From assembly GCA_020061705.1 (NCBI GenBank), contig JAGUXT010000051.1, positions 1 through 59,680 of the forward strand: DNA of 59,680 nt. Direction: 5' to 3'. The stretch's first letter is position 1; the number at the start of each line of letters is the position of its first letter. Positions 1 through 59,617 of the stretch are shown here, one piece after another. The translations under genes and the position numbers were made by a program. The notes beneath the pieces were generated by a model. That model was not told the DNA's origin. It did not search any database and worked only from the letters and a program-made list of their open reading frames with translations. Source of the stretch: Halothiobacillus sp. Lineage in GTDB: Bacteria; Pseudomonadota; Gammaproteobacteria; Halothiobacillales; Halothiobacillaceae.

Positions 1-2913
1 CTTGCCCAATACGCGCTGACGCTCGCTGGCATACAAGGCGACAAGGAAGCGGTTGTCGATATAGGCCTTGCCCGGCGTGCCTTCCGCCGTGCCCAGACCG
101 GCGTTCATCATGTTCACCACCAACTGGCCGCGCGCCTCGAACGCCGCGTTGCCCGAGCCCTGCGCCGCGTAAGTGTTGCGCAAGGTGATGAGTTCATTCG
201 TCCAGTAGTTCAGTCCTTCGGCATCGCTGGCACGGCCAAACACGTTGTTGTAGATCGCTTCGACAAAAGCCTGATCGGCCATGCCCGCCGGGTAAATAGC
301 CGTGACCACCGACAGGCTGAAGATGGTGCCGCCCACACGTTGGTAGGACTGGCCTTCGTTGACGATCTGGTTGCTCCAGTAGTTCATGCCACCCATATCG
401 GCGGCGCGCAGGAAGGCCGCCAGGTACATGCGCGAGAAGTGGTTCTCGGTCGGCACACTGAAGCTGGCGTTGTAGCTACGGTTAGCGCTCATGACGAGCG
501 AGCAGTTGGTACGCGTGCCCGTACAATCACCGCCCCAGGCTCCGAACACCTTGCCTGCCTCCGGTGTGGCGGTCAGGGTGACGCTGCTGTTGTAGGCGTA
601 GCTGGCCTGGTTCGGGGTGATTTGCACGCTACCGCCTGCGCTGAGTGCGCCGGACAGGCTGTAGTGGCGTGGGGCGCTGCATTGCACCGCCGTGCCGCTC
701 ACGCAGCTCCACGAATAAAGACTATTCGTGCTCGTCACGTTACTGGCCGTGCCTATGGCGCATAAGCTGGTCGGCACCGTAACCGTCGGCACACCGGCTG
801 AAGCACCGCAGCCAGCGGCCGGGGGAGGGGTTACAAACGTTGCGCTCACCGTGCGGTTGGCACTCATGATGATATTGCAGGTCGATGACGAGCCACTGCA
901 ATCACCACCCCAAGCACCCAAAACCATACCGCTAACTGGCTGCGCGGTCAGACTCACACTCGTATTGTAGGCATAGCTCGCCTGCTGAGGGCTTACATTA
1001 ATACTGCCGTCGCCCGTGACACTGAGCGAAAGTCCGTAGTGACGCGGTGCGCTGCACTGTGCCGTTGTATCGGCAGCACAGCTCCAACTGAAAAGCGTGT
1101 CAGAGCTTGTGATGCCGCTCGGCGTGCCGCTGGCGCACAAGTTGGTGGGGGTTGCGATGCTGGTCACACCGTTGGCTGCACCGCAACTGCCCGCGATGGG
1201 GGCGTTGACAAACGTCGCACTGACCACGCGGTTGCTGCTCATGCTGAAACTGCATGTCGTGGATGAGCCGCTGCAATCGCCGCCCCAGGCACTCAAAATC
1301 TTGCCGCTGGCGGGTTGCGCCGTCAGCGTCACGCTGGTGTTGTAGGCGTAGCTCGCCTGCTGGGGGCTCACTCCAATGCTTCCGTCACCCGTGATGCTGA
1401 GTGAAAGTTCATAGTGACGTGGTGCGCTGCACTGCACTGTATTACTGCCGACACAGCTCCAGCTATAGAGACTATTAGAACTTGTAACGCTGCTGGGTGT
1501 GCCGCTGGCGCACAAGCTGGTAGGCGCAACGATGCTGGCGACATTATTAGCTGTGCCGCAACTGGCTATGACGGCAGGCGGCGTGCGGAAGGCTGCGATA
1601 TTTGTCTTGGTATTGGTTAACGCCAACGCGGCATGGGCAGAGTTTTGTGCAAGCTCACTTACACCACAAGGGTTGCCGCCAGTACATGTTAAATTTGGAT
1701 TAGAAAACTTGGCGACTTCTGGACTGAGGTAGCTCATGACCGTGCCAAACACGCCCTGAATGCCGTAGCCATTAGCATAGGTATAAGCGCCTGACCCACC
1801 ACCATTGGCTCGATCATGCGCCAGCCCCATGTTATGACCGAGCTCATGCGGAAACGTCATGTCAGTACAGTAATACCCCGACGGATCGCTTCCGTCACTA
1901 ACCACTGCATAGCCATTCGCTGACCAGAAGGCCAAGTTATTGCCGATGGATTGCTGGTTGTAACCGGAGACCCAAGCCACACCACAACTGACTTGCTCCG
2001 GATATTGAAAGGGACGGATGAACACCACCAAATCTGCCCCCGCCGCATCACGCAAGCCACCAATCGTATTGAAGGGCGCAACACCGTCAGTAATGGCATC
2101 CAGCGCAATCCCGTTATCGTTGAGACTGGAATAGTTCAATTGCACGATTTGCCCCACGCGCCGAATTTCCAAATCAACCCCACTATCGATGTAGGCCTGA
2201 TTTGTTAGCGCAAAGAGAAAATCGATCCGAGCATTCAGCCCGCTCCCCAAGGTCGTCGCCAAATCATTGTTCACCACCACCATTACATCGATCGTCGTGC
2301 CGGCAACGGCAGGGCTCGACACGCCAGACTGAACGGTGGCGAGAGCCGATGACACGGACGAAGCCAACTCAAGCGAAGCTTTGTTTTCAGCATTCGCGCT
2401 CGGACGAGCCAGATGATCGTGATCCTGTACGGGGTGCTGCAAAGTCGGTGTCCCGCAAAATACCGGCGGCACCCTGAGACCAGCAGCCTTGACATCTACT
2501 AGAACCGTCTGGCCTTGCTCACTACGCAACAGAAACTCGCCTTCCGGCGTGAGGATGCGCCCCACGGTAGCATGGTCGTCCTGCACAAGAATGATGCGAA
2601 AGTTATCGCCCGCCTCCGCAACCTCGCCAACCCAAACCTTGGCACCGCGTGCATTTTGCTCAACGCTAGAAAATATAACGTCGCGTGGCGAGCCTGTAAT
2701 CGCCCCTAATGCAACGCGTTGCCCAGGTTTAATGCCTTGCGCAAGCACCGGATTGATGCGGACTAAACGAGCACCTTGCGGCATAGTCAGTGAGGCAGGC
2801 GCGATACCCGTCTGCGCACCTTGCACTGCGTCCGCAGGCAGAAACAGATCACTCGCCACAGCCACCGGAGAGAACAGAAATGCGAGCAAAGCGATAATGG
2901 AGTATCGGAACAT
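1..2913 (-). CDS. Secreted metzincin zinc metalloprotease with three InlB-type repeats and DUF4214-like tail (3' end beyond window)
   Basis: A continuous minus-strand reading frame of 971 codons runs off the window edge, so the C-terminus is missing. It begins with ATG at 2913 and a signal peptide (MFRYSIIALLAFLFSPVAVA). The catalytic motif HELGHNMGLAHD is at residues 356-367 and fits the metzincin zinc site HExxHxxGxxHD; a Met-turn candidate (VMSYLSP, Met about 393) follows at the right distance. From about residue 450 to 820 come three ~123-residue units ending in the pattern AWGGDCSG...NR.V.ATF, typical of divergent InlB B-repeats. The last visible part has two segments of the type GRASDAEGLNYWTNEL, typical of DUF4214. 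Known of the families: metzincins cleave extracellular proteins; the repeats are usually surface or adhesive spacers. Role as an exported, possibly surface-attached protease is inferred. Confidence 0.85.
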   Translation of the reverse strand, partial: MFRYSIIALLAFLFSPVAVASDLFLPADAVQGAQTGIAPASLTMPQGARLVRINPVLAQGIKPGQRVALGAITGSPRDVIFSSVEQNARGAKVWVGEVAEAGDNFRIILVQDDHATVGRILTPEGEFLLRSEQGQTVLVDVKAAGLRVPPVFCGTPTLQHPVQDHDHLARPSANAENKASLELASSVSSALATVQSGVSSPAVAGTTIDVMVVVNNDLATTLGSGLNARIDFLFALTNQAYIDSGVDLEIRRVGQIVQLNYSSLNDNGIALDAITDGVAPFNTIGGLRDAAGADLVVFIRPFQYPEQVSCGVAWVSGYNQQSIGNNLAFWSANGYAVVSDGSDPSGYYCTDMTFPHELGHNMGLAHDRANGGGSGAYTYANGYGIQGVFGTVMSYLSPEVAKFSNPNLTCTGGNPCGVSELAQNSAHAALALTNTKTNIAAFRTPPAVIASCGTANNVASIVAPTSLCASGTPSSVTSSNSLYSWSCVGSNTVQCSAPRHYELSLSITGDGSIGVSPQQASYAYNTSVTLTAQPASGKILSAWGGDCSGSSTTCSFSMSSNRVVSATFVNAPIAGSCGAANGVTSIATPTNLCASGTPSGITSSDTLFSWSCAADTTAQCSAPRHYGLSLSVTGDGSINVSPQQASYAYNTSVSLTAQPVSGMVLGAWGGDCSGSSSTCNIIMSANRTVSATFVTPPPAAGCGASAGVPTVTVPTSLCAIGTASNVTSTNSLYSWSCVSGTAVQCSAPRHYSLSGALSAGGSVQITPNQASYAYNSSVTLTATPEAGKVFGAWGGDCTGTRTNCSLVMSANRSYNASFSVPTENHFSRMYLAAFLRAADMGGMNYWSNQIVNEGQSYQRVGGTIFSLSVVTAIYPAGMADQAFVEAIYNNVFGRASDAEGLNYWTNELITLRNTYAAQGSGNAAFEARGQLVVNMMNAGLGTAEGTPGKAYIDNRFLVALYASERQRVLGK
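455..1565 (-). repeat. Three tandem ~370-bp in-gene repeats (InlB-type units)
   Basis: Three direct repeats with a period of about 370 bp encode the InlB-type units of the metalloprotease. Each unit has a Cys-rich front part (LCASGTPS..TS..L.SWSC) and a back part (SYAYNTSVTLTA..AWGGDCSG). They are similar but clearly diverged at the protein level. The two N-terminal copies (about 820-1565) are the closest to each other. Confidence 0.75.
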
Positions 2914-3086
2914 GGCGTTGGTTTCCCCTAAAGTCCTTAATTCAGTGCATTACGGCAAAAATTTTTAATGTCTATAGTCAAGCATAAAATCAACAATTAG
3001 GCGAAAATTATAGTCGTTTTCGAGCTGATTAAATCGACGTCAGGACAGCTTATTCGACTGACATGCATTTGCCATCTTGCACGCTG

Positions 3087-3092
3087 TACAAT
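3087..3092 (+). promoter_or_regulatory. Candidate -10 element for the decarboxylase gene
   Basis: TACAAT lies 36 bases before the chosen decarboxylase start. The hexamer 17 bases upstream (TGCATT, 3064-3069) matches the -35 consensus only partly. The 214-base divergent gap is AT-rich compared with the rest of the window. This is a weak prediction. Confidence 0.3.
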
Positions 3093-3127
3093 CGCGCATC
3101 TTTTCACCTATACAAGAAGGGTCGCCC

Positions 3128-5380
3128 ATGAGATTCCGCTTCCCCATCGTCATCATCGACGAAGACTTCCGCTCCGAAAACGCCAGCGGTTTTGGTATTC
3201 GCGCCCTCGCCACGGCCATTGAAGCTGAGGGCGTTGAAGTCATGGGGGTCACGAGTTACGGCGACCTGTCCACGTTTGCTCAACAACAAAGCCGCGCTTC
3301 GGCTTTCATCATGTCGATTGACGATGAAGAATTCAGTTCCGGCATCCCCAACGAAGAACTGGCCGTGGTGCGCCAGCTGCGCTCCTTCGTCGAGGAAATC
3401 CGCTTCCGCAACGCCGACATCCCCATCTTCCTCTATGGCGAAACGCGCACATCCAGCCACATCCCCAACGATGTATTGAAAGAATTGCACGGCTTCATTC
3501 ACATGTTTGAAGACACGCCGGAGTTCGTCGCGCGTCACATCATCCGCGAATCCAAGGCCTATCTTGATACCCTCGCGCCGCCCTTCTTCCGTGCGCTCAC
3601 CCACTACGCGGCGGACGGTTCCTATTCCTGGCACTGCCCAGGCCACTCAGGCGGCGTGGCTTTCCTGAAAAGCCCGGTCGGGCAGATGTTCCACCAGTTC
3701 TTTGGAGAAAACCTGCTACGCGCCGACGTGTGCAACGCGGTCGAAGAACTCGGCCAACTGCTTGACCACACCGGCCCGGTCGCCGCCTCCGAGCGCAATG
3801 CAGCACGCATCACCCACGCCGACCACCTGTACTTCGTCACCAACGGCACCAGCACCTCCAACAAAATGGTCTGGCACAGTGTGGTCGCCCCCGGCGACAT
3901 CGTGGTGGTCGATCGCAACTGCCACAAGTCCATCCTGCACGCGATCATCATGACTGGCGCGATTCCTGTGTTCCTCACACCAACGCGCAACCATTTCGGC
4001 ATTATCGGGCCGATTCCGCTGTCCGAATTCAAGATGGAAAACATCCAGAAGAAAATCGACGCACACCCATTCGCTCGCGATGCGGCCATCAAAAAGCCGC
4101 GCATTCTGACCATCACCCAGTCCACCTATGATGGCGTGCTGTACAACGTCGAAACCATCAAGGAACTGCTTGATGGTGAAATTGAAACCCTGCATTTCGA
4201 TGAAGCCTGGCTGCCCCACGCTGCTTTCCACGAATTCTACGGCGACTATCACGCCATAGGCGAAGGGCGCCCGCGCTGCAAGGACTCGCTGATTTTCTCC
4301 ACCCAATCCACGCACAAACTGCTGGCTGGCCTATCGCAAGCCTCGCAAATTTTGGTGCAAGACAGCCAAAACGGTGGTTTCGACCGTGACGTGTTCAACG
4401 AGTCCTACCTGATGCACTCCTCCACGTCACCGCAGTACGCGATTATCGCCTCCTGCGACGTGGCCGCTGCCATGATGGAACCTCCAGGAGGTACCGCGCT
4501 GGTCGAGGAGTCGCTGGTCGAAGCGCTCAACTTCCGCCGTTCGATGCGCAAAGTTGATGAAGAGTGGGGTGCGGATTGGTGGTTCAAGGTCTGGGGTCCC
4601 GATGAGTTGCCGAGCGAAGGCATGGGCGAGCGCGAAGACTGGATGATTAAAAACGGCGACCGCTGGCACGGCTTTGGCGATTTGGCGAGTGGTTTCAATA
4701 TGCTTGATCCGATCAAGGCCACCGTCATCACACCCGGCCTGGACATGGATGGCGATTTTGCCGACTGGGGCATCCCGGCAGGCATCGTCAACAAATACCT
4801 CGCCGAGCATGGTGTCGTGGTGGAAAAAACCGGCCTTTACAGCTTTTTCATCATGTTCACCATTGGCATCACCAAGGGTCGCTGGAACACGCTGGTGACT
4901 GCCTTGCAGCAGTTCAAGGACGATTACGACCGTAACCAGCCACTTTGGCGCATTTTGCCGGAATTCATTGCCAAGCACCCTGTCTATGAGCGCATGGGAC
5001 TGAAGGATTTGTGCGACAAACTGCATGGCTTGTACAAGCAATATGATGTGGCGCGCCTGACCACCGAAATGTATCTCTCCGACATGGTTCCGGCCATGCG
5101 CCCGGCAGATGCATGGGCGAAAATGGCGCATCGCCAGATCGAGCGCGTGCCGGTGGATGAGTTGGAAGGACGCATTACCGCCAGTCTGGTCACGCCCTAT
5201 CCGCCCGGTATCCCCCTGCTCATTCCCGGAGAGCGCTTCAACAAAACCGTAGTCGATTACCTCAAGTTTGTGCGCGAATTCAACAAACAGCTCCCCGGCT
5301 TTGAAACCGATGTACATGGTCTCGTCGCGGAAAAAATCAACGGTGAAACCATCTATCACATTGACTGCGTGAAGGATTAA
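3128..5380 (+). CDS. PLP-dependent Orn/Lys/Arg decarboxylase, fold type I
   Basis: 750 residues, the usual size for biodegradative/biosynthetic basic-amino-acid decarboxylases (about 710-760). An N-terminal receiver-like wing domain (about 1-140) precedes the PLP domain. The PLP lysine is K397 in STHKLLAGLSQAS; the motif SWHCPGHSGG (about 180) and the HFDEAW motif (Asp for the PLP ring) are present. An in-frame start exists 51 bases upstream, but ATG 3128 has AGAAGG at seven bases and removes a non-conserved extension. The enzyme removes CO2 from ornithine, lysine or arginine to give putrescine, cadaverine or agmatine; I cannot fix the substrate from sequence alone. speE lies 3.3 kb downstream, which favours a polyamine role. 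Confidence 0.9.
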   Translation: MRFRFPIVIIDEDFRSENASGFGIRALATAIEAEGVEVMGVTSYGDLSTFAQQQSRASAFIMSIDDEEFSSGIPNEELAVVRQLRSFVEEIRFRNADIPIFLYGETRTSSHIPNDVLKELHGFIHMFEDTPEFVARHIIRESKAYLDTLAPPFFRALTHYAADGSYSWHCPGHSGGVAFLKSPVGQMFHQFFGENLLRADVCNAVEELGQLLDHTGPVAASERNAARITHADHLYFVTNGTSTSNKMVWHSVVAPGDIVVVDRNCHKSILHAIIMTGAIPVFLTPTRNHFGIIGPIPLSEFKMENIQKKIDAHPFARDAAIKKPRILTITQSTYDGVLYNVETIKELLDGEIETLHFDEAWLPHAAFHEFYGDYHAIGEGRPRCKDSLIFSTQSTHKLLAGLSQASQILVQDSQNGGFDRDVFNESYLMHSSTSPQYAIIASCDVAAAMMEPPGGTALVEESLVEALNFRRSMRKVDEEWGADWWFKVWGPDELPSEGMGEREDWMIKNGDRWHGFGDLASGFNMLDPIKATVITPGLDMDGDFADWGIPAGIVNKYLAEHGVVVEKTGLYSFFIMFTIGITKGRWNTLVTALQQFKDDYDRNQPLWRILPEFIAKHPVYERMGLKDLCDKLHGLYKQYDVARLTTEMYLSDMVPAMRPADAWAKMAHRQIERVPVDELEGRITASLVTPYPPGIPLLIPGERFNKTVVDYLKFVREFNKQLPGFETDVHGLVAEKINGETIYHIDCVKD

Positions 5381-49959: not shown

Positions 49960-51384
49960 TCACTGGGGCGATGGGGTATCTCCACGCGTGGAGCTTGCGG
50001 GCAGCTTCACCAGGCTGTCCCCCAATGCAAGATGCAAATTCACACGCTGCGCCAAACGCTCGCCCTGCACCTGAAGCAAGCTCAGGCGGGCACTTTCCAG
50101 GCTCAACTGCGCCTTCAGCACGCTGCGCATATCGCTGCTGCCGATTTTGTTCTGCAGCACAGCCAACTCCAGCGCGCGTTGCCGATCGTTCACCACCTGC
50201 TGCAAAATGTCCTGCCGCTCGCGCAAGGCTGCTTCGCCACTCAGCGCGCTTTCAACCTCGTCAAAGGCGCGCAGGCCGATACGAGCATAGGCGGCGACCG
50301 CTTCCTTCTGCTCGGCGTTGCGGATTTCCACCTGGGCATCCAATGCACCTGCGTTGAACAGTGGCCAAAGCAGGCTGCTGCCGATACCGCCGATCGGATT
50401 GCTATTGTTTTTCAGCACGATCAGATCGCTGGACACCGCGCCCAGGGTGGCAGTCAAACTCAGCGTCGGCAAGCGTGCCGCACGCACTTCCTCAGTGCGG
50501 TTGAAGGCCGCCGCAACGCGCCGCTCCGCCGCCACCACATCCGGGCGGCGCTCCAGCAGCTCGGAGGGTAGGCCTGCTGCCACGGGCGCTGGCATGGGCG
50601 GAAAATGACTGGCACTTTGAATTGCCGCCGCCGGGTAGCGCCCCAGCAAACCCTCCAGCGCACGCTGAGCCTGGGTGCGCGCAAACTGCACCTCGCGCAG
50701 GGCATCACGGTATTCACCAAGGCTAGCCTGAGCCTGAACCACGTCCTGCTCGCTGCCCGTACCAATGTTTTTACGCACCTTGCTCAGTTCAACCATCTGC
50801 TCGGCGGACTGCACCATGGCTTGCAACAATGCTTCCTGCTGTGCACTGGCAATGGTCAGCAACCAGCCGCGCACCACCATCGCCGCCAGCGATTGCTGAG
50901 CATAGGTATAGTCGAGCTGCGCTGAAGCATGGGTGTCCGTGGCAGCGCGGGCGCCATAACGCAGGCGACCCCACACATCCAGTTCCCAGCTCGCCGCCAG
51001 CACGGCGGTATTCATGCCATCGCCGCTGCCCCACTTGCCGCCGCCCTTGGCCGCCCCCACCACATTCGGCCACAGCTCCGCCCCCGCAATGGTGACATAG
51101 CCTGCGGCCTGCTCGACGCGCGCCGAAGCTGCGCGCAAGTCGGCGTTGTAAATCAGCGCTTCGTGCAGCAGAGCCTCCAGCGCAGGCTGATCGAACACCC
51201 CGGAACTCGCGCCGACGAGCGCTCCCGTCGCGGCGGGCGATTTCCATTGCGTGGGTGGCTGAGCATTGGGCAAAGCATCCTGCCGCAGCTGTGCGCTATC
51301 CGGCGGCGTATGCAGGCTGCACCCCGCCAACAGGCTGACCGCCACACACAACACCGAGCGCTGAAAAACCCTCAAGGTACTCAT
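49960..51384 (-). CDS. Outer-membrane efflux lipoprotein (NodT/OprM type)
   Basis: 474 residues from ATG 51384, which overlaps the upstream stop by one base. Lipobox SLLAGC (Cys about 22). Two outer-membrane-efflux repeats: ALIYNADLRAASARVEQAAGYV..., with ASWELDVWGRLRYG, and the later SLLWPLFNAGALDAQVEIRNAEQKEAVAAY with FDEVESAL. It forms the outer-membrane duct for the adjacent HlyD-type adaptor. Confidence 0.9.
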   Translation of the reverse strand: MSTLRVFQRSVLCVAVSLLAGCSLHTPPDSAQLRQDALPNAQPPTQWKSPAATGALVGASSGVFDQPALEALLHEALIYNADLRAASARVEQAAGYVTIAGAELWPNVVGAAKGGGKWGSGDGMNTAVLAASWELDVWGRLRYGARAATDTHASAQLDYTYAQQSLAAMVVRGWLLTIASAQQEALLQAMVQSAEQMVELSKVRKNIGTGSEQDVVQAQASLGEYRDALREVQFARTQAQRALEGLLGRYPAAAIQSASHFPPMPAPVAAGLPSELLERRPDVVAAERRVAAAFNRTEEVRAARLPTLSLTATLGAVSSDLIVLKNNSNPIGGIGSSLLWPLFNAGALDAQVEIRNAEQKEAVAAYARIGLRAFDEVESALSGEAALRERQDILQQVVNDRQRALELAVLQNKIGSSDMRSVLKAQLSLESARLSLLQVQGERLAQRVNLHLALGDSLVKLPASSTRGDTPSPQ

Positions 51385-52607
51385 CAATGCAACTTGGGAA
51401 TGATGTAGTTGGTGTACGAGCCGACACGCAGAATCACCATGCGCAGGATATGAATCATCTGCGCCTTCTGGGTGTAAATCGCTGCATCGCCCGCTGCACC
51501 CGCTGCCAGGAATTCATCACGGTGCTTGGGATCGACATCCAGCTTGACCGCAAAACGCCCAGGCGGGATCGGAGCTGTGCCGGTTTGCGGCAACACGCCC
51601 CCGATCGGCACCTGGCCTTGCCCCTGCCCCCACACGATCGAATCCACATGCGCCTTGATGATTGAGCCGGGCTTGGTGGCCAGCGCAATTTCAGCGGCAT
51701 CCCCCGGCTGCACCTGATGGATTTCGTTCTGATTGTAAAGCGCGATGATCTGGTAGTTGTGCTCTTCCACAAAGGTCATGGCGGGCGCCAGCGGCACCGC
51801 CACCACCATCGAGCCGGGGCGCAATTGCAGGTTCATAACCCAGCCATCAGCAGGCGCATAGGTTACCGTCTGGCTCAACTCCCAACGCGCGTTGTCCAGA
51901 TTGGCCTGGGTCGCCGCAATCTGTGCCTTGGCCGTGGCCACGCGGGCTTTCGCACTGGCCACCGCCGCCTGATCGTCACCCGAACGCGCTGAAAGTTTCA
52001 GCTTGGCTTGCGCTTCCGAAGCGCTTGCCGCAGCAATCTGGCCGTCGAGCTGGCGTACATTTGCTTCCCATTGCTCCAGCGAGAAACGCTCATCAGCACC
52101 CGCCGCCACCAGCTTGCGATACTGCTCGACGCGCTTGTGCGCCAGTTCAAGCTGGGCACGCAACGCACCAACCTGACCGGCGGCGGCTTTCACCGCCTCC
52201 TTCATCTCGCCCACGCTGGCTTCTGCCTGACTCAAGCCCGCCAGCGCATCATTCAACGCGGCCTGATTCGCCGCCAGCGTGCCTTCGAGCTGGCTGACCG
52301 CGTTCTGGTAGGGCGTCGGATCAATCCTGAACAGCACCGCCCCCTGCTGCACGTAGTCGTTACCCGCGACGGGAACCTCGATCACCCGGCCACGCACCTG
52401 CGGCACGATCTGCACCACGTATTTGATGACCCGTACATCCGGCGACGACGGTGCAACCACGTTCAGAGTCAGGATCAGCGCGGTGAGACCCACGATGGGA
52501 ATAATGACCACAATGACCTGGGACTTGGTGTTCCAGGGCAGCCATTTGAATTTGATAAAAACCAGCCAGACAAAGAAGGAGTAAATCCCGAGTAAAATCG
52601 CTTCCAT
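51384..52607 (-). CDS. HlyD/EmrA-type membrane fusion protein (YiaV-like)
   Basis: 407 residues. Two front membrane segments (about 3-20 and 30-50), then a biotinyl-lipoyl half-motif (VPQVRGRVIEVPVAGNDYVQQGAVLFRIDPTPY), a long coiled coil (about 95-230) and the second lipoyl half (YAPADGWVMNLQLRPG). The extra N-terminal segment and the DUF3302 partner match the E. coli YiaV/YiaW pair. No inner-membrane pump gene lies in the set. Overlaps both neighbours by one base. Confidence 0.85.
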   Translation of the reverse strand: MEAILLGIYSFFVWLVFIKFKWLPWNTKSQVIVVIIPIVGLTALILTLNVVAPSSPDVRVIKYVVQIVPQVRGRVIEVPVAGNDYVQQGAVLFRIDPTPYQNAVSQLEGTLAANQAALNDALAGLSQAEASVGEMKEAVKAAAGQVGALRAQLELAHKRVEQYRKLVAAGADERFSLEQWEANVRQLDGQIAAASASEAQAKLKLSARSGDDQAAVASAKARVATAKAQIAATQANLDNARWELSQTVTYAPADGWVMNLQLRPGSMVVAVPLAPAMTFVEEHNYQIIALYNQNEIHQVQPGDAAEIALATKPGSIIKAHVDSIVWGQGQGQVPIGGVLPQTGTAPIPPGRFAVKLDVDPKHRDEFLAAGAAGDAAIYTQKAQMIHILRMVILRVGSYTNYIIPKLH

Positions 52608-53185
52608 TAACGGGCACTCTCAGTAACGGATTCAGCGTCCACGCCTGTGGAAGGTTTGCTTTCGACAGCGGCTGGGGTTTTGTTGGTTGCTTCACCCTCA
52701 AGCGCAATCAGCTGATCGCGCACCACACGCAGCTCTGGGGTGATATGCCCCGAGGCCTGCAAGTGATCCAGCTCTTCGCGCAAATGGCGAATTTCGGCGG
52801 CGGTCATTTCTTCTCTCATGGCTCGCTCACCGGCTTCCTTGAAATAGTCCGGGTGCTTTTCCGTGCCATAGGCCATTTTGTAGGTCACCGGCTTGGTGTA
52901 CGCCCACAACCAGGCAAACGGCCACAACATGCCGCCGAAGATCAAGGACAGCAGGCACAGGGTTTTGATCGCGTCCTTTTGCGGGTGATGACGTTTCTCA
53001 GCCACTTTTTCCGGCAGGATATGAATCAGCCAGAACAGCCAGATGCCGCCAATCGGTATTGCGAAAAGGATAAATAGCGCCAAACCATTGGCCACCGCAT
53101 CCAGGGTTTCTCCATGAAACATGGAGGCATTTGCCGTCGATGACAGCAGCAAAAAGGCTAACGCAGCAAGCCAGAATGTCTTCAT
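52607..53185 (-). CDS. DUF3302 membrane protein (YiaW-like)
   Basis: 192 residues from ATG 53185, which starts a signal-anchor (MKTFWLAALAFLLLSSTANAS); the frame is open further upstream without reason to extend. Two more membrane segments: LFILFAIPIGGIWLFWLIHILPEKVAEKRHHPQ and LCLLSLIFGGMLWPFAWLWAYTKPV, the DUF3302 core. The tail is a charged helix (EEMTAAEIRHLREELDHLQ). Function unknown; the fixed pairing with the HlyD-type gene suggests a joint role. Confidence 0.82.
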   Translation of the reverse strand: MKTFWLAALAFLLLSSTANASMFHGETLDAVANGLALFILFAIPIGGIWLFWLIHILPEKVAEKRHHPQKDAIKTLCLLSLIFGGMLWPFAWLWAYTKPVTYKMAYGTEKHPDYFKEAGERAMREEMTAAEIRHLREELDHLQASGHITPELRVVRDQLIALEGEATNKTPAAVESKPSTGVDAESVTESAR

Positions 53186-53349
53186 ATTCACCAAACTCAC
53201 AAACCGCCCGACAGGCTTAATTATTTTTGAGTAGTCTAGCGCAATAATTCCAATCCATACCCGATATAAAATTTTGCCCGCATTCAATAGGTTTAGAGCG
53301 TAAAGTCAGGAAACTAAATATTTGCACTCCTTGCCGAGGACGCCAGTCA

Positions 53350-55008
53350 ATGAATGATGCAGTCGCCACACCCAAGCAAAAGTCAAACCGCTGGATGGCG
53401 GATGTACTTCCCGGCCTGACGACCGCCGCCGTCGTGGTACCCAAGGCGCTTGCCTATGCCACCATTGCCCAGCTTCCCGTGCAGGCTGGCTTGTTCGCAG
53501 CCTTGGTGCCGATGGCGATCTACGCCGTACTCGGCAGCTCGCGCGTACTCAGCGTCAGCACCACCACCCCCATCGCCATTTTATGTGCCGTCGCGATTGG
53601 CGAAGCCTTGCGCAACGACCCCAGTCTTAACCCGCTGATTGCCGCCGCCACGCTTTCGCTGCTGGTGGGCGTGATGCTGCTGGCTGCGCGCGTGCTGCGC
53701 ATGGGCTTTCTGGCCGACTTCATCTCGGAGCCGGTGCTGACTGGCTTCAAGGCGGGCGTGGGCTTTGTCATCGTCGTCGATCAACTACCCAAACTGCTCG
53801 GCATCCACATCCACAAGGAAGGCTTTTTCCGCGATATTGTCGCAATACTCCATCAGGTGTCCGAGCTATCCTGGATTACCCTTGGCGTGGCTGGCGCGAC
53901 CCTGGCGGTCATTTTTCTATCCAAGCACTTTTTACCCCGCGCACCCGCCCCCTTGCTTGCCGTCGCCGCCGGGATTGCCGCCAGCGCGCTGCTGGGGCTG
54001 GATGGATTGGGGGTCAGCGTGGTCGGCCCCATCCAGGGCGGATTTCCCGGCCTGACGCTGCCACAACCCGCTCTGTTCGAGGACATGTGGCCTGCGGCGG
54101 CGGGCATCGCCTTGCTGTCCTTTACCGAGTCCATCGCCGCCGCACGCGCCTTTGTACAGCGCGGCGACCCGCCGATCAACGCGAACCGCGAACTGCTGGC
54201 CATTGGCGCCGCCAACGCGGCGGGAGCCTTCATCGGCTCGATGCCCGCAGGCGGCGGAACCTCGCAAACCGCCGTCAGCCGCAAGGCTGGATCGCAAACC
54301 CAGGCGGCCTCGCTGGTGGTGGCTGCTGCGGCCTTGGCGACCCTGCTGTTTCTCTCGCCGCTGATCGAACTCATGCCCCACGCCACGCTGGCTGCCGTGG
54401 TGATCGCCTACTCCATCGGCCTCATCAATCCGGCTGAGCTGGACGCTATTCGCAAGATTCGCCTCATGGAGTTCCTCTGGGCGCTAGTGGCCTGCCTGGG
54501 CGTGATGGTGCTGGGAACGCTCAAGGGCATTGTGGTGGCGATTGTGCTCTCGATGGTCAGCATCCTGTCGCTGGCCAATAACCCGCGCGTTGATGAGCTG
54601 CGCCGCAAACCGGGCACACAGGTTTTCCGCCCGCGTTCAGACGAACATCCTGAAGACGAAAGCATCCCCGGCCTGCTGATTGCCCGCCCGGAAAGCGGCA
54701 TCTATTTTGCCAACGCTCGCAACGTCAGCGCAAAACTGCGCGAACTGGCTCCAGACAATCTTCCAGAGGTGGTGCTGCTCGACCTTTCAGCCGTGCCCAT
54801 GCTTGAGTTCACTGCGCTACAAATGTTGATCGAAGCCGAAGAACGGCTACGCGGCGAAGGCACGGAGCTTTGGCTGGCCGCGCTCAACCCCGAAGTTCTG
54901 GCGCTTGTGCAGCGCACCCCGCTGGCCGAACGACTGGGACGTGAACGCATGTATTTCACCGTGGAGCGAGCTGTCGAGGCCTACAACGCACGCCCCCCCT
55001 GTCGCTGA
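53350..55008 (+). CDS. SulP-family anion permease with STAS domain
   Basis: 552 residues. About ten to twelve membrane segments with PGLTTAAVVVPKALAYATIAQLPVQAGLFAALVP and FIGSMPAGGGTSQTAVSRKAGSQT, SulP hallmarks. The C-terminal STAS domain (about 435-545) reads LPEVVLLDLSAVPMLEFTALQML, with Glu rather than Asp-Ser at the usual phosphorylation spot. Members carry sulfate, bicarbonate or dicarboxylates; substrate not readable. Divergent from the DUF3302 set. Confidence 0.9.
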   Translation: MNDAVATPKQKSNRWMADVLPGLTTAAVVVPKALAYATIAQLPVQAGLFAALVPMAIYAVLGSSRVLSVSTTTPIAILCAVAIGEALRNDPSLNPLIAAATLSLLVGVMLLAARVLRMGFLADFISEPVLTGFKAGVGFVIVVDQLPKLLGIHIHKEGFFRDIVAILHQVSELSWITLGVAGATLAVIFLSKHFLPRAPAPLLAVAAGIAASALLGLDGLGVSVVGPIQGGFPGLTLPQPALFEDMWPAAAGIALLSFTESIAAARAFVQRGDPPINANRELLAIGAANAAGAFIGSMPAGGGTSQTAVSRKAGSQTQAASLVVAAAALATLLFLSPLIELMPHATLAAVVIAYSIGLINPAELDAIRKIRLMEFLWALVACLGVMVLGTLKGIVVAIVLSMVSILSLANNPRVDELRRKPGTQVFRPRSDEHPEDESIPGLLIARPESGIYFANARNVSAKLRELAPDNLPEVVLLDLSAVPMLEFTALQMLIEAEERLRGEGTELWLAALNPEVLALVQRTPLAERLGRERMYFTVERAVEAYNARPPCR

Positions 55009-55163
55009 AACCAATCCCGGAAGACTGTGACCAGGCGCTCCCCCCCCTCAAGCTCGGTTTTGAAAAAACCCAGCGCCGCCCTAACAGCAATCACAATTCC
55101 AGAAGGGTGCTACTCTCATTCTTGACCAGCGCCCGTTTCATCCGGAGGCTCCAGTAGAAGTCC

Positions 55164-55514
55164 ATGAATAGATGTACCCCCCAAATTCGAATACCCAATC
55201 GAGCATCCATCGGCAAGGCTGCATTGGTCACCGCCATTGCATCGATCGCAGCTCTGACCTCTGATATCACTCTTGATACCCGTGTCGTTGTTGCGGATGC
55301 CTCTGCCGTGATCGGCCGACCTGCAACCCCCCTGAGTTATGCAGGGGTGGCTCGACGCACCACTCGCCGCATGATTTATGCAACCTCCGTGTATGTCGCC
55401 ACACTGCCACCGAACTGCACGACGATCGTCATTGAAGGCGTTGCGCTTCAGCAGTGCGGATCGACCTACTATCAGGCCTCCGGCGCCCAGTACGTCGTGG
55501 TTGAGGTTCAGTAA
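55164..55514 (+). CDS. Small exported protein with SYAGVARR motif
   Basis: 116 residues with a hydrophobic leader (ALVTAIASIAALTS). It contains ASAVIGRPATPLSYAGVARRTTRR (about 47-70), nearly repeated in the gene at 56443. The tail has two Cys (LPPNCTT, VALQQCGSTYYQ) and resembles short exported proteins with a C-rich Tyr ending. I do not recognise the family. It is 95 bases before the DUF2092 gene; the 155 bases upstream show nothing definite. Confidence 0.6.
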   Translation: MNRCTPQIRIPNRASIGKAALVTAIASIAALTSDITLDTRVVVADASAVIGRPATPLSYAGVARRTTRRMIYATSVYVATLPPNCTTIVIEGVALQQCGSTYYQASGAQYVVVEVQ

Positions 55515-55609
55515 TCGAGCAGCCCGCGCCCTTCCAAATCTATCCAGGGCAGCACCTATCGCGTCGATTCGTCGCCATTCATTTAACCCAAACGAGGTAA
55601 CTTATCGTG

Positions 55610-56446
55610 ATGAAAAACACTCAACGAACTCTTGGCCTCGGCTGCGGCAGTACCGTAGCGAGCAGTCTTTTTCTTGCGGCGCTCATGCTCGCGGCACCCG
55701 TCGCACAGGCGATAGAAGGTGACGCGGAGGCTATTCTCAAAGCCATGAGCCAATATGTAGCCCAGCAAAAAAACATCGAACTCACCTTTGACAGCGATAT
55801 CGAGGTCGTCACGCCACAGTTGGAGAAGATTCAATTCACCAACTCAGGCGAAGCTCTGCTAAGCCGTCCGGACAAAATGCGCGCGCATCGCGTCGGTGGT
55901 TACGCGGATGTCGACATGGTTTTCGATGGCAAAACCCTGAGTATTCTGGGCAAGAACATCAACGGCTACATCCAGCGTGATTCAGCAGGTACGCTGGATC
56001 AGATGATCAACACCCTGCGCGCAGAGACGGGCGTTGCCTTCCCAGGAGCCGACCTTCTCCTGACAAACTCCTACGACACCCTGATGGCTGGCGTTATGGA
56101 AGCCAAACACATTGGGCGTGGTGTGATTGATGGCAAGGAATGCGAGCACCTCGCCTTCCGTAATTTCGACACCGACTGGCAGCTTTGGGTGCAAGTTGGC
56201 GACAAACCGATCCCATGCAAAATGGTCGTCACCAGCAAGATGCTGAACAGCGCGCCTCAATACACCGTGCGCATCAAGAGCTGGAAAACTGACGTTACCC
56301 CCAGCACGGATGCGTTCACATTCACCCCGCCCGCCGGCTCGCAGCGACTCGGTATGGAGTCCATGTCATCCCTCGACGAGTTGCCTCCCAGTGCTCCTGT
56401 AAGTCCATCTGCTCCCGTCACTCCAATCGCAGGAGAAAAGAAATGA
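55610..56446 (+). CDS. Exported DUF2092 protein
   Basis: 278 residues from ATG 55610; a GTG one codon earlier is equally placed to the GAGGT site. Signal peptide ends APVAQA. The rest (EGDAEAILKAMSQYVAQQKNIELTFDSDIEVV..QFTNSGEALLSRPDKMRAHRVGGYADVDMVFDGKTLSILGKNINGY) is typical of DUF2092, which has a LolA/LolB-like half-barrel for lipids by structural analogy. GKECEHLAFRNFDTDWQLWVQVGDKPIPCKMVVTSK is also characteristic. Overlaps the next gene by ATGA. Confidence 0.85.
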   Translation: MKNTQRTLGLGCGSTVASSLFLAALMLAAPVAQAIEGDAEAILKAMSQYVAQQKNIELTFDSDIEVVTPQLEKIQFTNSGEALLSRPDKMRAHRVGGYADVDMVFDGKTLSILGKNINGYIQRDSAGTLDQMINTLRAETGVAFPGADLLLTNSYDTLMAGVMEAKHIGRGVIDGKECEHLAFRNFDTDWQLWVQVGDKPIPCKMVVTSKMLNSAPQYTVRIKSWKTDVTPSTDAFTFTPPAGSQRLGMESMSSLDELPPSAPVSPSAPVTPIAGEKK

Positions 56447-56793
56447 AATACAGCGCACGCAGATATCTGTTCACGTTCGTGGCAATGACCGCCTTGTGGC
56501 TTTGCAACGGTTCAATCAACACCCAATCGTATAGCCTGTTCGCCTCTGCACATGCTGTGGTAGGTCATCCTGCAACCCCGGTGAGTTATGCTGGCGTGGC
56601 TCGGCGGAACACCGTGGGCGCTGGAGCGCCAGGTGTGGGCGTGGCTCCTGGCGTTGGAGCAGGCGGTGTCGGCGGGCCGGCCTCCGGGGTCGGCGTACTG
56701 CCTGGAGCAGGCGCTGGACAGGCGGGTGTCGGCTATAGTGGTGGCGTCGGCGTAAATGCTGGCGGCCCGGTCAATCGGGCGGGCGTGCGCTGA
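56443..56793 (+). CDS. Small exported Gly/Val/Ala-rich protein with SYAGVARR motif
   Basis: 116 residues, coupled to the DUF2092 gene by ATGA. After a hydrophobic leader comes HAVVGHPATPVSYAGVARRNT, then about 60 residues made almost only of Gly, Ala, Val and Pro (GVGVAPGVGAGGVGGPASGVGV). Low complexity; function unknown. The motif shared with the gene at 55164 suggests both act with the DUF2092 protein. Confidence 0.65.
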   Translation: MKYSARRYLFTFVAMTALWLCNGSINTQSYSLFASAHAVVGHPATPVSYAGVARRNTVGAGAPGVGVAPGVGAGGVGGPASGVGVLPGAGAGQAGVGYSGGVGVNAGGPVNRAGVR

Positions 56794-57051
56794 TCATTAT
56801 TGACCCGATCATTTATCGCATTCCTCCAACGCCTCTGGTGTCTGCGGCGTTGACCTCACTTCCGCCTCGCCAGAATGCCGACCGAATGAGCGTCATTCCC
56901 CAGAGCGGTACGATGTTGTCCGTGTCTGCCTTCACTATAAAGTGTGGCTTTTAAGCTCCCACTCCCTCCCCCTCAGCGGGGGACAGGGGGCTAAAAGCTT
57001 GCATCACAATGGGCAATTTAACAGGGGCGCAAACAGACCATAAGAGCCAGT
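56794..57051. other. Intergenic stretch without recognisable gene
   Basis: No convincing ORF. At 56961-56992 there is a G/C-run palindrome (CTCCCTCCCCCTCAGCGGGG...GGGGG) of a sort common as dispersed intergenic sequence. The 564-base gap to the broken gene at 57358 also contains the repeat listed next. Confidence 0.5.
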
Positions 57052-57226
57052 AATAAATCTCGACCAACGGATGCAGTACAAACGAAAAACCGCCGAAAAA
57101 ACGCAGTATAGACAACTACGCGAGCATTTTGAGGTGGTTTTTTGTGCCGCAATGCGCCGTTCAGTGAGATTTGAAATAGGCTTTAAGAATCTGTTTACGA
57201 TTTTTCACGATGGATGCCGGATGGCG
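57052..57226. repeat. Degenerate copy of the oxyR-side palindromic element
   Basis: 57052-57180 matches the interior of the element at 7982-8126 (for example CCAACGGATGC, CGCAGTATAGACAACTACG, GAGCATTTTGAGGT, GCCGCAATGCGC, TTCAGTGAG). It is followed at 57184-57226 by a second left end (AAGAATCTGTTTACGAT...GGATGCCG). Probably two old insertions. Confidence 0.65.
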
Positions 57227-57357
57227 GTATACATGCTTTTGACTCCATCCCCCCTCACGGGAGAGTGCTGGGGAGAGGCGAGCAAGCCAAATACACAATC
57301 GGCTGGCGTATGATCATCCGTTGATGCCCGAATATTTCGTTCGCAAGGCGCCATGCA

Positions 57358-58568
57358 ATGAGCACACCACCTCCGCATCCAAGTGACAACCTGCTGCGCA
57401 ACCCTCCAGACTTTTCGCTGGTGCACGGCAGGCCGCTGTTCCAGATTTTCCTGCGCACGCATCTCTCGAATGATGCGATGGAGCTGGCGCGCCAACGCAC
57501 CATCGTTATCGCCCTGCTGGCCTGGCTCCCGCTTTTCCTGTTATCGGCACTGGACGGGCATCTCCTGGGTGGCGTTGCCGTTCCCTTCCTGATGGACACC
57601 GAGGTGCACATCCGCTTTTTTTAGCGGCCATACCCATGATGGTCGGCGCGGAACTGATAGTACACCGGCGCATGCACCTGCTCGTCAGGCAGTTCATGGA
57701 GCGCAACCTGGTTCCCGATACTGCTCTGCCGCGCTTTGATGCCGCCATTCACTCGGCATTCCGCCTGCGCAACTAGACGCTCGCCGAGGTACTGCTGCTC
57801 GCCTTTGTCTATGGTGTTGGCGTGCTGATTGTCTGGCGCTATTTCATGGCGATTGACGCGCCCACCTGGTACGCCGTGCCGACGTCGGATGGCTTCAACC
57901 TTTCGCTCGCTGGCATGTGGTTTGTGTTTTTGAGCTTGCCACTTTTCCAGTTTCTTCTGCTGCGCTGGTATTTCCGCCTGTTTATCTGGGCACGTTTTCT
58001 CTGGCAGGTGTCGCGCATCAAATTGAACCTGATCCCCACCCACCCCGACCGCACCGGGGGACTTGGTTTTCTGGCTGACACGGTCTATGCCTTTATCCCG
58101 TTACTGATGGCGCACGGCGCACTGGTTGCCGGCAACCTCGCCAATCATATTTTCTACCTCGGCTCGACCCTATCCGAATACCAGGGCATCGTTGCCCTTA
58201 TGGTCGACTTTCTGCTGATTGTGGTTCTCGGCCCGCTGTTTGTCTTCACACCCCAGCTTGCCGAGGTGAAGCGCACCGGCAAGCGTGAATATGGCGTCTT
58301 GGCGCAGCGTTATGTGCATGAGTTTGATCGCAAATGGCTGCGCGGCGGTGCGCCTGCCGACGAGCCGCTGCTGGGTAGCGCCGATATCCAGTCTCTCGCT
58401 GACTTGAACAACGGCTATGAGGTGGTGCGCACGATGCACACCTCACCCGTTTCGAAGGAGGCCATCCTCCGCTTGGCAATCGCTGTGGTTGTGCCGATTG
58501 TCCCGCTGGCCCTCACCATGATGCCACTGGAGGAGTTGCTGAAAAAGTTGTTGGGGATTTTGTTGTAA
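57358..58568 (+). pseudogene. Broken polytopic membrane protein gene (frameshift plus stop)
   Basis: Two reading frames join into one ~400-residue membrane protein. 57358-57624 codes for the front (ending DTEVHIRFF) and stops at a run of seven T (57616-57622); adding one T would continue as LAAIPMMVGAELIVHRRMHLLVRQF in the next frame. That frame meets TAG at 57774-57776 (SAFRLRN-stop-TLAEVLLLAF) and is then open to 58568. The tail has several membrane segments and NLIPTHPDRTGGLGFL. I do not recognise the family. A single error could explain one lesion but not both. Confidence 0.75.
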
Positions 58569-58636: not shown

Positions 58637-59602
58637 CTAGGGCATCACCACCGTCCAGCCTGTCGAGTCAAATTTTTCCATTTTTGCACCCAACGCGCTG
58701 GAATCATCACCCGAATCCTTTTCAAACACCGCGCCGTTCTGATTGACGATAAAGGTCATCACCCCACTCACACCATACTCGGCGGGATAGGCCACCATGG
58801 CGAAGCCCGCAAGCATGCGACCGTTAATCATGTAGTCATACGCGCCACCCGCTGCACCTTCGCCCTGGCGGGTGAGGATGCGGAAATGGTAACCACGGTA
58901 AGCATCACCCTGTTTGTGACCTTCAAGATAAGCCGAGCTGGCCGCAATAAGTGGGCCGAAGGGACTTTGCTCCTCGACCTTGGCGGCATCCGCAGGCCAA
59001 TACAAACCATCACGTTGACCGTCTGCGCTGGCCAGCTTCTGCGCAAACTCCAGCACTCCGTCGCCATTACGGTCGCGTGCGGCGTATTCACGCTGGGCGC
59101 GGACATAGGCGCGCAGCACGTCAATGGCGCTAAGTTCATTCGCACCGATATAGCGGTTCAATAATTCCTCTGCACCCTCGACGGTGGCAAAGTGCCAGCG
59201 CTGATCGACCCGCACAAGCGGTATGGGAAAAGGCCAGGCCTTGTCGCCGATGACCAACTCCTGACGATCCGGGGCAAGCTCATGCAACACGCTCAGGGTT
59301 TGCATGGCTGCCAAAATCCTGGCTCGATTTGCGCTGCTTGCCGCTTGGTCAGGCTGGATGAAAAGGTCTTTGTACTCTTCGCCAAACAGCTTGAGTATCG
59401 GTTCATTGCCGCCGCTCTTGAGAGCATCCTTGAGTGCCGTTACGGCCTCTTCGGGTGTGGCAAAGGTTTCCTGTGGCGCCGCAAAGGCCGACAGGGGCAA
59501 GAGCATGAGCAGCGCCTGCATCATGCTGCGTAAAAATGTAAAACTCGGGCGAAGTAGGTGCATGGCATTAGCTTCTTTTTGAATGGTAAAAATTAAGTGC
59601 AT
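58637..59602 (-). CDS. Exported DUF2950 protein
   Basis: 321 residues from ATG 59602, chosen for GGAGG eight bases upstream; ATG 59563 would give a tidier signal peptide (MHLLRPSFTFLRSMMQALLMLLPLSAFA). FATPEEAVTALKDALKSGGNEPILKLFG, the ARDRNGDGVLEFAQKLAS stretch, GLYWP, GPLIAAS and GYHFRILTRQGEGA are DUF2950 hallmarks. Function unknown. It follows a DUF3300-type gene by 15 bases, the usual pairing. Confidence 0.88.
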   Translation of the reverse strand: MHLIFTIQKEANAMHLLRPSFTFLRSMMQALLMLLPLSAFAAPQETFATPEEAVTALKDALKSGGNEPILKLFGEEYKDLFIQPDQAASSANRARILAAMQTLSVLHELAPDRQELVIGDKAWPFPIPLVRVDQRWHFATVEGAEELLNRYIGANELSAIDVLRAYVRAQREYAARDRNGDGVLEFAQKLASADGQRDGLYWPADAAKVEEQSPFGPLIAASSAYLEGHKQGDAYRGYHFRILTRQGEGAAGGAYDYMINGRMLAGFAMVAYPAEYGVSGVMTFIVNQNGAVFEKDSGDDSSALGAKMEKFDSTGWTVVMP

Positions 59603-59617
59603 TGCAGAAACCTCCAA

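Follow-up and report, generated by a model that had tools for sequence, protein, structure and literature searches.

A DUF2092 protein with a modelled LolA fold and two small exported-looking partners that share a motif arm in Halothiobacillus sp.

A DUF2092 protein and the two small exported-looking proteins that flank it form a real, conserved unit in the window, which is the whole stretch of 59,680 nucleotides from Halothiobacillus sp. that was analysed. As the best single reading, held tentatively and at a little less than even chances, we propose that DUF2092 acts as a carrier or chaperone of the LolA type, with small, non-lipidated exported proteins as its partners. This reading draws on the pairing of the genes, on the position of a shared motif, on the constraint acting on the motif and on the tails of the small proteins, and on the modelled LolA fold of DUF2092. 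The original prediction had described such a trio, and its coordinates and strands proved to be correct. On the + strand the order is SulP/STAS, small1, DUF2092, small2; export and cleavage of the small proteins are read from sequence.

53350..55008 (+): SulP/STAS transporter gene directly upstream of small1 (Pfam Sulfate_transp, 281.7 bits)
55164..55514 (+): small1, 116 aa; a predicted signal peptide leads into the motif arm, followed by a DUF6515-like beta tail that contains two Cys
55164..55307 (+): predicted signal peptide of small1, residues 1-48, ending in A-S-A (read from sequence)
55308..55370 (+): motif arm of small1, VIGRPATPLSYAGVARRTTRR; probably begins the mature protein and is modelled as disordered (pLDDT about 50)
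55374..55511 (+): small beta domain of small1, DUF6515-like unit, residues 71-116, five strands
55607..56446 (+): DUF2092 protein, 279 aa; predicted signal peptide and LolA-fold domain; PF09865 (Pfam)
55607 or 55610 (+): candidate starts of DUF2092, GTG or ATG, respectively
56443..56446 (+): ATGA overlap between the DUF2092 stop and the small2 start
56443..56793 (+): small2, 116 aa; a predicted signal peptide leads into the motif arm, followed by a Gly/Val-rich tail that has no Cys
56443..56556 (+): predicted signal peptide of small2, residues 1-38, ending in A-H-A (read from sequence)
56557..56613 (+): motif arm of small2, VVGHPATPVSYAGVARRNT
56614..56790 (+): Gly/Val-rich tail of small2, kept in the same-genus genome G003

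The motif V[IV]G[RH]PATP[LV]SYAGVARR directly follows a signal-peptide-like segment ending in A-x-A in both small proteins, as had been claimed. Of 19 residues, 15 are identical between the copies (78% DNA identity over 60 nt), and because 7 of these 15 residues use different codons, the motif has been kept as a protein sequence. Small2 matches small1 with E = 2e-6 in a search of the whole genome, where no third copy of the motif was found. That the two proteins are otherwise unlike each other holds for their tails, which are Cys/Tyr-containing and DUF6515-like in small1 and Gly/Val-rich in small2. The strict form SYAGVARR is local. The pattern gave hits in 14 of 274 genomes of the class, those outside the window falling into unrelated or antisense frames, and a reversed-pattern control gave similar numbers, so the strict form was dropped as a signature for a looser motif. 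A likeness of TPxSxAGVARR to the active-site signature of sulfatases was considered by eye and rejected, there being no Cys or Ser at the key place.

Membership of the central protein in DUF2092 is clear, with 227 bits against a Pfam cut-off for PF09865 of 21.2. The SulP/STAS gene is a possible but weak operon member, as SulP, which is also present at L026, occurs at one of 80 relative loci. Sulfate uptake as the function of the unit was rejected on the same count, and it is also disfavoured by the window's own genome, which was searched for sulfatase and DUF1254 and gave no match. A scan of 54900-57300 revealed no promoter-like site, and terminator-like sites at chance level only. Elsewhere in the window there are a DUF3302 gene adjoining an HlyD-type membrane-fusion protein gene (51384-53287, -), a 248 aa protein which has no Pfam match at E up to 10 and is membrane protein-like by eye (57822-58568, +), and a DUF2950 protein (58637-59617, -). 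According to a passage in PMC4653623, root nodule bacteria always have DUF2950 co-localised with a DUF3300 upstream of it.

A search profile for the motif family was built from ten such small proteins. In a large genome collection it led to 501 pattern matches, 408 of which were confirmed and the best 80 of these fetched. Alphaproteobacteria account for 64 of the best 80, the others being from Gamma- and Betaproteobacteria, Thermodesulfobacteriota and Cyanobacteriota (NCBI ranks). Together with other loci they yielded 114 distinct motif-bearing frames and the wider motif G-R-P-x-T-P-x-S-[VYA]-A-G-V-A-R-R-T-[VT]-R-R. While constancy at G0, P2, P5, S7, A9, G10 and R14 was imposed by the collecting pattern, the free positions are also conserved: R13 in 114 frames, R18 in 111, A12 in 110, R17 in 107, T15 in 105 and R1 in 102.

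An A-x-A end lies exactly three residues before the motif Gly in 101 of the 114 frames. Within the fetched set this spacing, which was part of no search pattern, is found in 72 of 77 cases, and any other offset in at most 16 of 77. Because of this position the motif arm is probably the mature N-terminus. For the majority of rhizobial members, the mature peptide is predicted to be 29 residues long and Arg-rich, with two Cys; such a product might be secreted as a cationic peptide with bioactivity, as a signal or an antimicrobial, with DUF2092 sequestering it or providing self-protection. We consider this quite unlikely, as the sequence is very highly conserved across phyla, unlike diversifying bacteriocins, many relatives have longer tails, and the neighbour clusters that were examined showed no conspicuous gene for an export ABC or a protease.

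DUF2092 lies directly upstream of the motif protein on the same strand at 75 of the 80 loci, a share which is biased upward since the best 80 of 408 are those most similar to a rhizobial DUF2092 partner. Among the five loci without full DUF2092, L058 has kept a 3′ remnant of the gene. The exact 4-base overlap seen in the window recurs in 70 of 81 pairings, a count favoured by choosing the start nearest to the DUF2092 stop. At L003, the DUF2092-motif pair adjoins a protein that resembles pentameric ligand-gated channels by eye (2574-3602, -).

A different picture emerged from 398 genomes sampled across the window's phylum and not selected by the trio genes. The profile matched 36 places, and after five tail-only matches (L128, L130-L133) had been dropped, 31 motif places in 19 genomes remained, including the unread G393:C89 and a slight variant in G501. 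DUF2092 adjoins ten of these 31 places and is not adjacent at the other 21. Strong DUF2092 matches (E below 1e-30) occur at 19 places in 17 genomes. Motif and strong DUF2092 coincide in eight genomes (Fisher p 1e-7, the genomes not being independent), and 11 of the 19 motif genomes are without any strong DUF2092. The expectation that the motif would be specific to DUF2092 neighbours is thus largely refuted.

The motif also occurs near the C-terminus of an unrelated exported-looking family of about 220 residues (200-240 aa) that has no Pfam match, where it follows a F-I-D-[IL]-[IV] stretch (L120:2408-3064, L124:1510-2094, L125, L126, L127, L129, L024:2-628). Members of this family that are devoid of the motif were found at L053, L038 and L108. 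Given the places without DUF2092, these 220-residue proteins and DUF2092 partners that have no motif, the motif is a portable module rather than a DUF2092-specific tag.

From the side of DUF2092, a motif protein is the neighbour at nine of the 19 strong places, and these are all nine strong places in the eight co-carrying genomes. At eight of the other ten, DUF2092 is followed by an exported-looking protein without the motif but with a DUF6515-like tail of the type P-x-C...Y-x-C...Y-x-V; five of these eight give Pfam DUF6515 matches, all below the cut-off. One of the remaining two places is at a contig edge and one is without a partner by the pattern used. As either a motif protein or a DUF6515-like exported protein comes next at most strong places, a small exported partner is the rule for DUF2092. 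For the eight motif-less partners, either the arm is not a universal handle or they use another one. Directly downstream of the motif-less DUF2092 loci L143, L146, L149, L150, L152 and L166 are exported-looking proteins rich in Gly/His or Gly. Each carries one DUF6515-like tail unit, the matches falling on three different parts of PF20125, and PF20125 may hold repeated units.

The small1 tail, like several motif-less DUF2092 partners, matches part of DUF6515 (PF20125). With 18.4 bits it stays below the cut-off of 24.9, and the protein from L003 is the only one among those scanned to pass it (26.6 bits). An AF2 model of small1 from 13 sequences (pLDDT 69.8, pTM 0.38) consists of a signal-like helix (13-32), a disordered arm and a five-stranded tail that includes a block with pLDDT 80-89. 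A PDB fold search with this model gave no match at E below 1, a blank result that carries no weight either way. Compared with G003, where the small1 orthologue adjoins DUF2092, 40 of 49 residues of the small1 tail are identical. For the small2 tail this holds for 55 of 59 residues, while fourfold third positions are alike in only 21 of 46 cases. Both tails are real, conserved protein.

For DUF2092 itself, an AF2 model from 33 sequences reached pLDDT 84.4 and pTM 0.77. Foldseek ranked LolA first (E 4e-12), and with VIA-align the model superimposes on LolA with Z 16.4 and rmsd 2.8 over 178 aligned residues, followed by RseB (Z 14.1) and MucB (Z 12.2). Sequence matches to the PDB were unusable (best E 0.13). 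DUF2092 is thus modelled as a LolA fold, an open beta-barrel with a helical lid, which agrees with an earlier, sequence-based prediction of PF09865 as LolA-like in a passage of PMC4520260. The small exported partner and the shared N-terminal arm are absent from the DUF2092 description in that passage.

While DUF2092 shares with LolA the fold over nearly the whole domain and apparent export, it is distinct from LolA proper: it scores 17.9 bits against the cut-off of 112 for the lolA equivalog TIGR00547 (NCBIfam) and 30.4 bits against the cut-off of 100 for LolA1_Flavo. The motif partners also differ from what LolA handles. As they have no lipobox, the A-x-A being followed in the listed frames by a non-Cys residue and then [VIL]-G, the small motif partner is not a classical Lol client.

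The RseB/MucB matches raise the possibility that DUF2092 and its partner constitute a sensor of that type, with the small protein or a lipid as the signal that DUF2092 reads. In RseB and MucB, a second, C-terminal domain binds the anti-sigma factor. The DUF2092 model is a single LolA-like domain, aligned over residues 35-254 with low-confidence ends, and no anti-sigma gene is among the neighbours listed. Lipid sensing has been reported for such a fold in a passage of PMC7400510, and the LolA-like domain itself is common to both; even so, we regard a sensor as very unlikely. We count another feature of this group, its engagement of a periplasmic peptide, as support for the carrier reading, since the MucB-MucA pair, as treated in that passage (PMC7400510), sets a precedent for peptide binding by a LolA fold.

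In the same-genus genome G003, the genes follow each other on one strand in the order small2 homologue, Ser-type arylsulfatase, DUF1254/DUF1214 protein, radical-SAM maturase-like protein (taken as anSME by sequence and place, without a profile), DUF2092 and small1 homologue.

L169:4851-11718 (-): gene row of G003; Ser-type arylsulfatase (SSPTR), two motif proteins in the row

The DUF2092 proteins of the window and of G003 are identical at 103 of 259 positions (40%). In the tree, the window protein falls into a clade of 10 rows together with proteins of rhizobial type (support 96/94); a joint clade with the G003 protein is rejected (AU p 0.0002, for a pair chosen after the identities had been seen). 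The window DUF2092 is thus not the orthologue of that in G003, although both small tails are orthologous.

Motif residue 8 follows the DUF2092 clade. It is Tyr in all ten rows of the window DUF2092 clade, despite three tail types, as compared to 7 of 82 rows elsewhere. On the DUF2092 tree it changes 8 times versus a shuffled mean of 19.75. Both arms have Ala in G003, and both have Tyr in the window. This pattern fits a co-adaptation of arm and DUF2092; the covariation is confounded by co-inheritance of adjacent genes, and the two arms of the window could share their Tyr via gene conversion or homogenisation.

The neighbours at the best 80 of 408 and other loci form recurrent clusters: a TPR protein, DUF1254/DUF1214, a DUF900 hydrolase, sulfatase, FGE, MBL-fold, DUF3604 and HupE proteins. 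With anSME added, and DUF1254 standing for its cluster, these make up the companion set. At least one companion was found at 50 of the 80 loci, which are not independent and from which the profiles derive. The set was also counted at 19 motif loci without adjacent DUF2092 (274,695 bases in total; L184 among them has DUF2092 about 4 kb away) and in 20 control regions (320,020 bases in total). Because companions occur at 13 of the 19 loci but in one of the 20 controls, the motif marks a gene community, with DUF2092 as one of its members. Text searches of the literature returned no description of the partner family, of the DUF2092-partner pair or of the exported-enzyme island (sulfatase, maturases, DUF1254/DUF1214, DUF900).

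These counts bear on a further explanation: the arm may bind another common partner, such as the envelope surface, an outer-membrane protein or an enzyme, with DUF2092 merely co-inherited in an island of exported genes. The companions at DUF2092-less loci speak for it, as do the 220-residue exported proteins with the motif near their C-terminus and no adjoining DUF2092. The controls, however, were taken from four genomes of a single genus, at places of our own choosing, and the near-constant order of DUF2092 and motif protein, with the 4-base overlap, is tighter than the association of the other companions. We take a common partner to be a real possibility, held at well below even chances.

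In summary, the suggestion that the motif is a docking or sorting signal for DUF2092 has survived in part. The paired genes, the position at the predicted mature N-terminus, the modelled LolA fold and the tracking of residue 8 speak for it, while the 21 of 31 motif places without adjacent DUF2092 and at least eight of 19 strong DUF2092 places with a motif-less partner speak against it. We infer a docking role, with the arm as a plausible though not exclusive handle of DUF2092. In the carrier reading, DUF2092 and the adjacent small exported protein or proteins would form one periplasmic unit. DUF2092 would receive the Sec-exported small protein after cleavage of its signal peptide, bind it physically, and keep it soluble or pass it on in the direction of the outer membrane or cell surface. 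The likely handle in this branch would be the client's flexible arm at the mature N-terminus, x-V-G-R-P-x-T-P-x-S-x-A-G-V-A-R-R-T-x-R-R, with an exchangeable effector end formed by the tail, be it a Cys loop, a DUF6515-like beta unit or a Gly/Val stretch. It is somewhat unlikely, but worth stating, that DUF2092 proteins represent a Lol-like carrier line for small exported proteins without lipid, in which a LolA-fold carrier recognises the conserved N-terminal arm exposed by signal peptidase and brings the exchangeable tails to the surface of the cell, frequently from islands that code for exported sulfatases and for enzymes of unknown function as well.

DUF2092 and the small motif proteins, two families to which no function has been assigned, hereby become one testable unit. 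The arm may also be of use as a marker for a recurring exported-enzyme island comprising sulfatase, its maturases, DUF1254/DUF1214 and DUF900. Should DUF2092 indeed carry peptides, a periplasmic sorting route that works without lipid anchors would make use of the LolA fold, and the arm of 20 residues would be a ready tag for that route.
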